Shown here piece by piece: positions 14,497 through 17,966 of a DNA stretch of 53,023 nt (position 1 is the stretch's first letter; each line of letters starts with the position of its first letter). Under the pieces are notes generated by a model, which was not told where the DNA came from, made no database searches, and saw only the letters and a program-made list of their open reading frames with translations. A program made the translations under genes and the position numbers. Origin of the DNA: Candidatus Poribacteria bacterium (GTDB taxonomy: Bacteria; Poribacteria; WGA-4E; WGA-3G); NCBI GenBank assembly GCA_012270795.1, contig JAAXHO010000093.1:1-53023 (forward strand). The letters run 5' to 3'.

Positions 14497-15144
14497 ATGG
14501 CGAAAACAGGTACAATTACTCCAATTACAGTTGGTATTATGGGAGGTTCGGCATCAGGGAAGACAACTTTCGCAAATGCTTTAGCAGAACTTCTGGTTGA
14601 ATTTTCACCAATAATACTGAATCAAGACTCCTATTTTAGGGATTGGTCGGAATTCACACCTGAGGAACGAGAAAAGGTAGTAACCGCAAACCACCCAGAT
14701 GCTGTATGTTGGGATGTGCTTATAGCTGATTTAGAAAAACTGCGTTCCAACACTACAATTGAAATACCTTCACCAGGGACACGTGCTGCACACCGTGGTG
14801 ATGATAGTAAGACCATACAGCCCAGTGATGTCGTGATTGTAGAGGGACACCTTATCTTTTGGAATCAGAAATTACGAGAGTTGCTGGACATAAAACTTTA
14901 TTTAGATGTGGATGCACATGAACGCGTGTTACGACGTATGCTTCGAGATGTCGGCACACGCAGTGCAAACCTTGAAAGTGCAATCAGTTGGTACCGCCGT
15001 GATGTCCTACCAAATTATCCAATATATACGGAACCGTGTAAGAAATACGCTGACCTTATTATCCCCTTCCTAAACGAAAATCCTATTGCATTGCAAACTG
15101 TTGCTGCTGGTATCCGAGCCCACCTTGCTAACCTGATCTTATAG
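14497..15144 (+). CDS. Uridine kinase/phosphoribulokinase-family P-loop kinase
   Basis: The 215-residue cytoplasmic kinase has Walker A GGSASGKTT at residues 16-24. It continues with ILNQDSYFRDWSEF, 'NHPDAVCWDVLIADLEKL', a Walker B-type 'DVVIVEGHLIFWN', and the lid/RR segment 'RVLRRMLRDVGTRS'. This order is typical of uridine/cytidine kinases, which phosphorylate nucleosides with ATP in pyrimidine salvage. The 'EGHLIFWN' and C-terminal parts are closer to the nicotinamide riboside/uridine kinase-like branch, so substrate is uncertain. No clear ribosome site precedes ATG 14497. The gene stands alone, divergent from the AAA gene. Confidence 0.82.
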   Translation: MAKTGTITPITVGIMGGSASGKTTFANALAELLVEFSPIILNQDSYFRDWSEFTPEEREKVVTANHPDAVCWDVLIADLEKLRSNTTIEIPSPGTRAAHRGDDSKTIQPSDVVIVEGHLIFWNQKLRELLDIKLYLDVDAHERVLRRMLRDVGTRSANLESAISWYRRDVLPNYPIYTEPCKKYADLIIPFLNENPIALQTVAAGIRAHLANLIL

Positions 15145-15159
15145 CAATTCTCCACTTTA

Positions 15160-15261
15160 TTAAGTTTACATTTTCTGTGGGAGCGATCTCCGAATCACGA
15201 CAAAAAGTGATAATAGTTAGGAATCGAAGTTCCCTCCTACAATTGGAAAATGTAAAGTTAA
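15160..15261. repeat. Decayed inverted-repeat element
   Basis: TTAAGTTTACATTTTC (15160-15175) and GAAAATGTAAAGTTAA (15246-15261) are near-perfect terminal inverted repeats. The inside holds relics of the GTAGGAGCGA core (GTGGGAGCGATCTCC ... CCCTCCTACA). It looks like an old relative of MITE family A with different ends. Confidence 0.55.
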
Positions 15262-15381
15262 TTGTAGAATGTACTATATAGTAAATTATTTGTGAAAACT
15301 AATTTATTGCATATAATCTGAAATGAATAATTTTTTATTGATATATTTTTGAAATTTTGTATAATAAATGCATAATAAAAC

Positions 15382-15405
15382 TTGTAGAAATGATTCTTTC
15401 TACAA
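15382..15405. repeat. 9-bp hairpin in an AT-rich gap
   Basis: TTGTAGAAA and TTTCTACAA are perfect arms around TGATTC. It lies between the kinase gene and the tandem repeat. No gene is near, and its role is unknown. Confidence 0.5.
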
Positions 15406-15454
15406 ATAAATAGTTCCTTTTGTCATCTTTGGACAATCGTAAGTAATAATTGTA

Positions 15455-15614
15455 ATTTATGGTAGATTATACAAATTTATGGTAGATTATACAAATTTAT
15501 GGTAGATTATACAAATTTATGGTAGATTATACAAATTTATGGTAGATTATACAAATTTATGGTAGATTATACAAATTTATGGTAGATTATACAAATTTAT
15601 GGTAGATTATACAA
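15455..15614. repeat. Tandem array of eight identical 20-bp units
   Basis: The unit ATTTATGGTAGATTATACAA is repeated eight times head to tail with no mismatch. The last unit (15595-15614) is also the terminal 20 bases of the adjacent MITE copy (15598-15697), so the array is an amplification of that element's end. There are no spacers between units, so it is not a CRISPR array. Confidence 0.95.
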
Positions 15615-15697
15615 TTAATTCTACATTTTGAGTTGTAGGAGCGACCTTTGGTCGCTCCTACAGAAGAGGTGTATAATTATTTCAATAATTCACCATA
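15598..15697. mobile_element. MITE family A, copy 1 (100 bp, inverted orientation)
   Basis: The element runs from TATGGTAGATTAT to AATAATTCACCATA and is flanked by TA on both sides. The centre is the GTAGGAGCGACC-TTT-GGTCGCTCCTAC hairpin. It has no open reading frame. Compared with the copies at 19480, 43760 and 52585 it lies in the opposite orientation and has the shortest core. The TA flanks fit the target duplication of IS630/Tc1-mariner transposases, an inference only. Confidence 0.85.
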
Positions 15698-16177
15698 ATT
15701 GATATTGGTACAAATATTCAAACAGGACAAGGAATGGCGAAAATGCAAGATGTTTATGTAGCACATGCTGTTAGTTTGTGCGTATTTCGTTATAGCAACC
15801 GCAATCACGTTGGTTCTACTCTTAAACTTTCTGTGCTTTTACCAATTATCCGTTTTATTAACTATCGGTTTATCCCCCCCTTCACGCAAATTAACGATTG
15901 TAATAATATGTCAGTTAACGAACAACCGGATATCGCTGGTGTTCGTCAACTTTTTATTGTGCCCGTACGCTCTCTATTCACTTGGATAGTTTGCTGCGGG
16001 TTATTTTGTTTGCATGAAGTTGGTGGGTATCTTAACCGTTAATCATGAATAAAAATATTAGAGTTTCAAATTTTACTTTAAGAACTCTAACTGTAAACCT
16101 AAATAAGGTTAAATTAATCAACGATTAATTTGTGGACTTACCTTTACTGCGTCAGTCCTAAAAATGGAGGTATTTTA

Positions 16178-17386
16178 ATGTTTTCCAGGATATTTGTTAT
16201 AACCATAGTAGGCATGATGTGTCTATTCATGTTGACACTCACGGCAAATGCCCAAGAACCGATTCTCGGTCCTTATCTTTGGATGTTCGTTAAGTTGGCT
16301 CAAGATCAGGGTGGGCAATTAGCTACCAACGTTGATTCCCTTGCAGCCGCAAGCAATAATACGGTTACTGAAGATGTGGTGGCAAAAAATGGAGCCACTG
16401 AGGGGGATACGGTTGGGGATTATCAATGGACATTCGCTGACTTACCCGATAACGGTAACATAAATGATGTCGCCAAGCAAGCAGGTTTCACAGAGGTTGA
16501 CTTAGACGACGTGACCTCTTATGCCCTTTACACATACACATCCGATAAAGATCAAGAAGCGACAATGAAAACCGGGAGTGATGATTCTATCAAAGTCTGG
16601 CTCAATGGGGAAGTCGTTTTTACCAATGCCACTAACCGTGGAGCAGCCAGATGGCAGGATGAGTTCGGAATTAGTCTGAAACAGGGGGACAACCTGTTGA
16701 TGATCAAAGTTAGTGACCGCGGCGGTGGTTGGGGGATGCACGCCGGTATCCTTGAAACGCCTTTCGTCGCTCCCATACCTATCGTAGAAATTACCACAAA
16801 TTGGCTCTGGACGATGGTCAAGTTAGAAGCAAATCAGGGTGGACAATTAGCCACCGACGTTGATTCTCTTTCCGCCGCAACCGATGGAAACGTTACTGAA
16901 GAAAAGGTGGCTAAAGAAGGGGCAACTGAGGGGGATACGGTTGGAGATTATAAATGGACACTCGCTGATTTACCATCAAATAATAACCTAAATGATCTCG
17001 TCAATCAAGCTGGCATAGCAGAAGGAGGTTTTGACGACGTAACTGCTTATGGACTTGTTACGCTTGTTGCTGCCGAAGATATGGAGAATGTCGCATTCGT
17101 GGCTGGCAGTGATGATTCTATCAAAGTCTGGCTCAATGGGGAAGTTATACACACAAATGCTGTTAACCGAGGAACACGCAAATGGGATGATGAGTTCACT
17201 GGTAATCTGAAAAAAGGTAACAACCTATTGATGGTCAAAGTCAGTGACCGTGGCGGCGGTTGGGGCGTAGCCTTCGGTATTCGAGGGACCGTAGAAACCG
17301 CCTATCTACCCGGTGATCAACTTCTGAACGTTGAAGCAGCTGGGAAGTTTATCACCACCTGGGGTAAATTGAAAGGTGCGAAATAA
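16178..17386 (+). CDS. Secreted protein with two beta-sandwich-type repeats
   Basis: The 402-residue protein has a signal peptide ending near ANA-QE (residues 23-25). Two repeats of about 175 residues follow (roughly 30-200 and 208-385). Each contains 'GSDDSIKVWLNGEV', then 'NRG..W.DEF...LK.G.NLLM.KVSDRGGGWG'. This motif belongs to PA14-like/carbohydrate-binding beta-sandwich modules seen on exported glycan-active proteins, but no catalytic domain is present. ATG 16178 is fixed by GGAGG 7 bases upstream. Parts of the repeats are almost identical as DNA, so the duplication is recent or kept alike by conversion. The C-terminus 'AGKFITTWGKLKGAK' may be a shared tail. It is a likely surface or periplasmic binding protein of unknown ligand. 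Confidence 0.85.
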   Translation: MFSRIFVITIVGMMCLFMLTLTANAQEPILGPYLWMFVKLAQDQGGQLATNVDSLAAASNNTVTEDVVAKNGATEGDTVGDYQWTFADLPDNGNINDVAKQAGFTEVDLDDVTSYALYTYTSDKDQEATMKTGSDDSIKVWLNGEVVFTNATNRGAARWQDEFGISLKQGDNLLMIKVSDRGGGWGMHAGILETPFVAPIPIVEITTNWLWTMVKLEANQGGQLATDVDSLSAATDGNVTEEKVAKEGATEGDTVGDYKWTLADLPSNNNLNDLVNQAGIAEGGFDDVTAYGLVTLVAAEDMENVAFVAGSDDSIKVWLNGEVIHTNAVNRGTRKWDDEFTGNLKKGNNLLMVKVSDRGGGWGVAFGIRGTVETAYLPGDQLLNVEAAGKFITTWGKLKGAK

Positions 17387-17421
17387 TTAACTTTACATAA
17401 CACTTGATGTATGTTGAAACT

Positions 17422-17466
17422 GACCCTATAGTCCAATTAAGTAATTGCGGCTATAGGGTCTATATA
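17422..17466 (+). terminator. Hairpin terminator after the secreted two-repeat protein
   Basis: GACCCTATAG (17422-17431) pairs perfectly with CTATAGGGTC (17451-17460) and is followed by TATATATT. The loop is 19 bases. It lies 35 bases after the stop codon. Confidence 0.6.
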
Positions 17467-17502
17467 TTAGATAACGTGTTTTCTGAAAAATAGATATAAT
17501 GG

Positions 17503-17627
17503 TCAGGACTTACGCATTCCCCCTTGATAAGGGGGGTTAGGGGGGTTAAAAAGTTGCTATTTCAGTGATTTAACCCCCTAAATCCCCCTTATCAGTGGGA
17601 CTTTAAGAGAAAATGCGTAAGTCCTGA
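17503..17627. mobile_element. MITE family B, complete copy (125 bp)
   Basis: The 16-bp perfect terminal inverted repeats are TCAGGACTTACGCATT (17503-17518) and AATGCGTAAGTCCTGA (17612-17627). The interior is itself an imperfect hairpin of C/G-rich runs (GATAAGGGGGG ... CCCCCTTATC). TGG flanks both sides, a possible 3-bp target duplication. No coding capacity. Partial copies lie at 22429-22527 and possibly 52820-52833. Confidence 0.85.
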
Positions 17628-17966
17628 TGGTTTGGTTTCAAGAACTCACCTGACATTCCCGCACTTTGTAGTTTATGCTTCCGCGAAACGCAAATTTGCT
17701 ACAATCATACCTACTTTATAATTCCATTCCTACGTGATAATAAGTCTTTTTGGCATATTCACCATTTCAAAATGGCAAATATCTGTCAATGTGGCATCCT
17801 ATATTCCTTAATCTCATAAGTGAAATACTAGCATATTTTCTGTCAAGAATTAGAATCACAACTTGATGTTTTCACTTCCAAAGATATGATTATTCCGCAT
17901 CGGTATCGGTGTTAGAAGTATATTCCATACCTTTCATCAATCCATTTGGAATGTATTAATTTATTT

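Follow-up and report, generated by a model that had tools for sequence, protein, structure and literature searches.

The array at positions 15455-15614 of the window (the whole stretch of DNA analysed, 53,023 nucleotides) consists of eight identical 20-bp units that adjoin a MITE at 15598-15697. We conclude that it is very probably a recent, locus-specific minisatellite, formed when the junction between host DNA and an already inserted MITE was duplicated by slippage or illegitimate recombination and then expanded. The draft genome amounts to 5.18 Mb in 298 contigs. Background statistics were taken from 1.2 of its 5.2 Mb (23%), and the array search covered 85 poribacterial genomes (this one and 84 relatives). 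The features concerned are the following.

15454-15614, + strand: perfect tandem array, eight units of AATTTATGGTAGATTATACA (8.05 copies), from TRF, a period scan and ancestor reconstruction.
15598-15697, + strand: MITE family A copy including its flanking TAs, TA-TGGTAGATTATACAATTAATTC...TTTCAATAATTCACCA-TA, from its sequence, copies elsewhere and folding.
15454-15457, + strand: AATT host flank bordering the TA target on its left, with a copy in each later unit, from the corresponding bases in MITE-less empty-site paralogs.
15458-15459, + strand: left copy of the TA target duplication (first unit), from empty-site comparison.
15696-15697, + strand: right copy of the TA target duplication, from empty-site comparison.
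15338-16060, + strand: dispersed leader that received the MITE, from paralog alignment; the inserted DNA including the array is 15460-15697.
16178-17386, + strand: downstream gene; its 402-aa product begins with a signal-peptide-like N-terminus, contains an internal duplication and has no confident Pfam domain.

TRF reports a repeat of period 20 at 15454-15614, with 8.1 copies, a 100% match and no indels, and the unit ATTTATGGTAGATTATACAA recurs at eight consecutive 20-bp steps (15455, 15475 and so on to 15595). The sequence-only reading had described eight perfect 20-bp units, seven of them extra copies extending outward from the A-end of the MITE, and was correct on both counts. In the window, the longest perfect run at period 20 covers 141 positions, compared with at most 20 positions for any period between 10 and 60 that is not a multiple of 20; thus, a chance origin of the array is excluded. 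Within the 1.2 Mb, all other tandem loci with units of at least 8 bp have four perfect copies or fewer. With head-to-tail units of 20 bp present 8.1 times at 100% identity, the array falls within the definition of a minisatellite or VNTR (units of about 10-60 bp). Since the units are perfectly identical, the array is recent, as had been proposed from the sequence. Folding as single-stranded DNA gives it no secondary structure (z 0.2).

The element beside the array was confirmed as a MITE with further copies in the same genome. It reads TATGGT...ACCATA and measures 100 bp with its flanking TAs, the element proper being 96 bp. It carries TATGGTRRATTAT at both ends in inverted orientation and contains a perfect, GC-rich hairpin of 13 bp (TGTAGGAGCGACC/GGTCGCTCCTACA). 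As single-stranded DNA, the element has a strong fold (z -7); no ORF of at least 100 aa lies within 15598-15697. Copies of the family come in size classes of about 100, 113-116 and 152-157 bp, and the family hairpin core is GTAGGAGCGACC/GGTCGCTCCTAC. At 98% identity, C115:120112-120212 is the copy closest to the array-adjoining MITE, and it has no array. Approximately 92 A-ends of the family are recognisable in this genome, versus 1 in G038 (the nearest sister tried), 28 in G031 and 12 in G034; these counts suggest a recent expansion of the family in the lineage of this genome. Two 30-bp palindromes (L164:6698 and L142:14319) consist of two MITE ends only (TATGGTRAATTATTTCAATAATTYACCATA) and resemble extreme miniature derivatives.

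Relatives were searched with window 14497-16400 as the query. Window segments 15331-15458 and 15698-16194 are contiguous in contig C14 of the sister genome G038, and similarly in its contigs C191 and C184 and in C174, C144 and C214 of the genome under study. These empty-site paralogs are dispersed leader copies without the MITE, whose sequence is uninterrupted at the insertion point. The empty site at L108 reads ...GTTTAATTGG and the other paralogs ...TTTGATTGG, where the window has AATT-TA-ATTG; in the leader alignment, several paralogs show ...AATAATTGTTATTTGATTGGTATTGG and L108 shows ...AATAATTGTTGTTTAATTGG, while the window at the insertion reads ...AATAATTGTAATT-TA-[TGGT...ACCA]-TA-ATTGATATTGG. 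Given that the lengths of filled and empty sites agree when TA is counted once, we infer that the insertion made a 2-bp TA target duplication and that nothing was lost. Another copy, at L167:19605, interrupts the palindrome CAGGGTTATT-TA-AATAACCCTG and fits the same rule; a TA target is compatible with IS630/Tc1-type elements. The bases to the left of the TA differ among other MITE copies (ATT, AAC, TAC, TAT, AAT), and AATT is therefore host flank.

This defines what was amplified. The unit AATTTATGGTAGATTATACA comprises the four host bases AATT, the TA target and the first 14 bases of the MITE. The sequence-only reading had equated the unit with the terminal bases of the MITE, which holds for 14-16 of its 20 bases, whereas the ATT or AATT before the TA belongs to the host; the last unit looks MITE-terminal throughout because its flank is itself a copy of the left-side host flank. 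Amplification of the terminal inverted repeat alone was consequently rejected, as the unit includes host flank: judged against the paralogs, what is repeated is a segment of the junction between host and element. Since it spans host flank, TA and element, amplification came after insertion. If one AATTTATGGTAGATTATACA in the inferred ancestor ATAATTGTAATTTATGGTAGATTATACAATTAATTC is expanded to eight, the result matches the window at every base.

We propose the following order of events: (I) a MITE of about 96 bp from a TA-target family entered the leader 5' of a gene for a secreted protein, a step that the empty sites show; (II) slipped-strand replication or illegitimate recombination would then have produced a head-to-tail duplicate of 20 bp across the left junction (AATT from the host, the TA, and TGGTAGATTATACA from the element); (III) the duplicated pair would have grown to eight identical units via further slippage or unequal recombination. 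In favour of the slippage account, the MITE has a strong single-stranded fold (z -7) and the array has none; the hairpin could stall replication beside the junction and may have promoted slippage. Against it, the break points share exactly 1 bp at register 20 and 4 bp (AATT) at register 19, so that microhomology would favour a 19-bp register; eight perfect units are also exceptional within the 1.2 Mb. The first joining may have been nearly homology-free, or may have been an AATT slip with one extra A acquired before expansion. No arrays were found at the other A-ends or in the relatives, which fits an event that is rare and private to this locus. Replication slippage, one of the options offered in the earlier reading, thus gains support, although as a mechanism it is deduced. 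The array itself is probably neutral.

A different origin, abortive or repeated transposition, would have a transposase repeatedly inserting or copying the end, with successive ends separated by the TA target. The array units are indeed bounded by TA, and doubled ends occur elsewhere, apparently where one element inserted into a related one at an internal TA (C180 and C288 in this genome, C148 in G034). However, nesting at the internal TA (TATGGTAGATTATACAAT-TA) yields the 18-bp spacing found in C180 and G034, while the array has a 20-bp spacing and includes the host-flank AATT; nested insertion was rejected as its origin on the basis of this spacing. Every unit would moreover require an identical truncation point that is not a TA, 14 nt into the element, and no other MITE copy with more than two tandem ends was found among the 85 genomes. 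We consider this origin, which the sequence-only reading had also raised, highly improbable. Its further suggestion, an array of transposase binding sites, stands as a physical consequence of the repeat only, given that the families tried include no transposase with matching ends and that no other family member is arrayed. The search with DDE_3 (IS630-type) returned three fragmentary matches, all without matching paired ends, and that with DDE_Tnp_1 returned none. In the 23% of the genome covered, the only end pair enclosing a transposon-sized region belongs to two separate MITEs on C197, and the 1.2 Mb read yielded no autonomous element.

The copy number could also be an assembly artefact, the true array being longer or shorter than eight, which would be compatible with the slippage account. 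The assembly is a draft in 298 contigs, and a perfect array of 161 bp is longer than the k-mers commonly used for short reads; the precise count may therefore reflect gap filling. On the other hand, the contig runs on through the array, no contig of this genome ends with a partial array, and assemblers normally collapse tandem arrays and do not invent them. An artefactual count is thus unlikely.

A third reading concerns function: the number of units might tune expression of the secreted protein, in the manner of a contingency locus. The leader contains a sigma-70-like promoter (TTGATA-N16-TATAAT at 15338-15365) and a small ORF (15734-16042). The array lies about 90 nt downstream of the promoter-like site, and about 560 nt separate it from the start codon of the downstream gene (16178); the leader that contains it is repeated before several secreted-protein-like genes. 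Each unit carries TATAAT on the minus strand, and there is a published precedent in BrickBuilt, a MITE from bacteria that contains a minisatellite and has promoter activity in both directions (PMC4596501). Nevertheless, the region shows no clear excess of promoter-like sites over shuffles (11 versus 6.2, sd 2.7), no minus-strand promoter-like site was found inside the array, and every other leader copy examined lacks an array. A regulatory role is possible but unsupported; we regard a functional variable-number array as quite unlikely, and as very unlikely the broader idea of a MITE-seeded regulatory element that tunes the leader-bearing secreted-protein transcript, with MITE junctions seeding contingency loci in Poribacteria.

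To return to the minisatellite, its closest comparisons come from the other MITE ends. Arrays of at least three ends were found nowhere else in the 85 genomes, the other approximately 90 A-ends of this genome included, so that tandem end arrays in further family A elements, which the earlier reading had proposed to look for, did not turn up. A collection-wide pattern scan added one Poribacteria contig, the nested-end case in G034 (JAAXGN010000052.1; same genus), and single pattern matches in unrelated genomes. At C197:48348-48434, a related MITE end (at C197:48363) bears a 41-bp duplication of flank plus A-end (CACTTCTCTAAAATTTATGGTAGATTATGGAATTAATTACA), with 2.1 copies, 100% identity and CACTT at both break points; this is a smaller-scale event of the same kind. 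Doubled A/B-type ends 18 bp apart occur at C180:4201-4231 and in G034 at C148:5409-5439, and in degenerate form at C288:22674-22704, consistent with one element nested at an internal TA of another. The C180 and G034 copies are alike at their other end too, but sit in different places, for which reason the doubled-end element may itself have moved. It should also be noted that, among 224 tandem loci in the 1.2 Mb, two independent ones and one nested-end case overlap MITE ends; this is about equal to a rough hand estimate (~1), and MITE ends as a general tandem-repeat hotspot were set aside with no enrichment claimed.

Eukaryotes provide well-documented examples of MITE-derived tandem repeats (reviews PMC6947457, PMC9659126). 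In bacteria, the BrickBuilt and 464/PgRS MITEs of Porphyromonas gingivalis are likewise multi-copy intergenic elements with a minisatellite, of 23-nt units within BrickBuilt and 41-nt units in PgRS, similar to the present 20 bp (PMC4596501). Their repeats lie inside the element and recur in many copies, whereas the present array is unique, lies at the outer junction of a single copy and includes host flank. As described in the two reviews, Xstir on the Xmix MITE of Xenopus laevis (Hikosaka and Kawahara 2004, via PMC6947457, PMC9659126) also has tandem units from the terminal inverted repeat region, although it is eukaryotic and carried on the element in many copies. The model of Haber and Louis, as presented in PMC6947457, invokes slippage between short flanking repeats of 5-10 bp, and similarly has two steps, a short-repeat duplication followed by expansion to identical units; the break-point homology here is shorter than in that account (1 bp, or 4 bp one base off). 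What distinguishes our array from the known MITE minisatellites is that it spans the outer junction of one copy. It offers a clean snapshot of the birth of a minisatellite at a transposon border: the empty site, the target duplication, the element copies and the array are all legible in one genome and its sister, and the order of events can therefore be read as insertion, junction duplication and expansion. No new transposition mechanism is indicated.

Window 15128-17740 (2.6 kb with leader, MITE, array and secreted-protein gene) is missing at the corresponding place in the sister G038, where the uridine-kinase gene is followed by about 60 bp and then by the region matching 17740 onwards. The leader, 600-700 bp long, is repeated upstream of different genes, mostly with signal-peptide-like N-termini. 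Its copies comprise window 15338-16060, C174, C144, C214, C272 and C115 of this genome, C14, C191, C184, C17 and C60 of G038, and others in G041, G042 and G045; it turned up in 6 of 18 genomes of the genus. It often contains a good sigma-70-like promoter followed by a reading frame of 84-105 codons with a run of 7-9 C, a frame not conserved in all copies. Rfam gave no structured RNA in the host leader and alignment folding only a few weak helices. The repeated sequence is possibly a mobile or recombining expression leader. Just upstream, window 15161-15280 holds a second, unrelated dispersed inverted-repeat element (AAGTTTACATTTTCTG...AAAATGTAAAGTT), of which the genus has dozens of copies.
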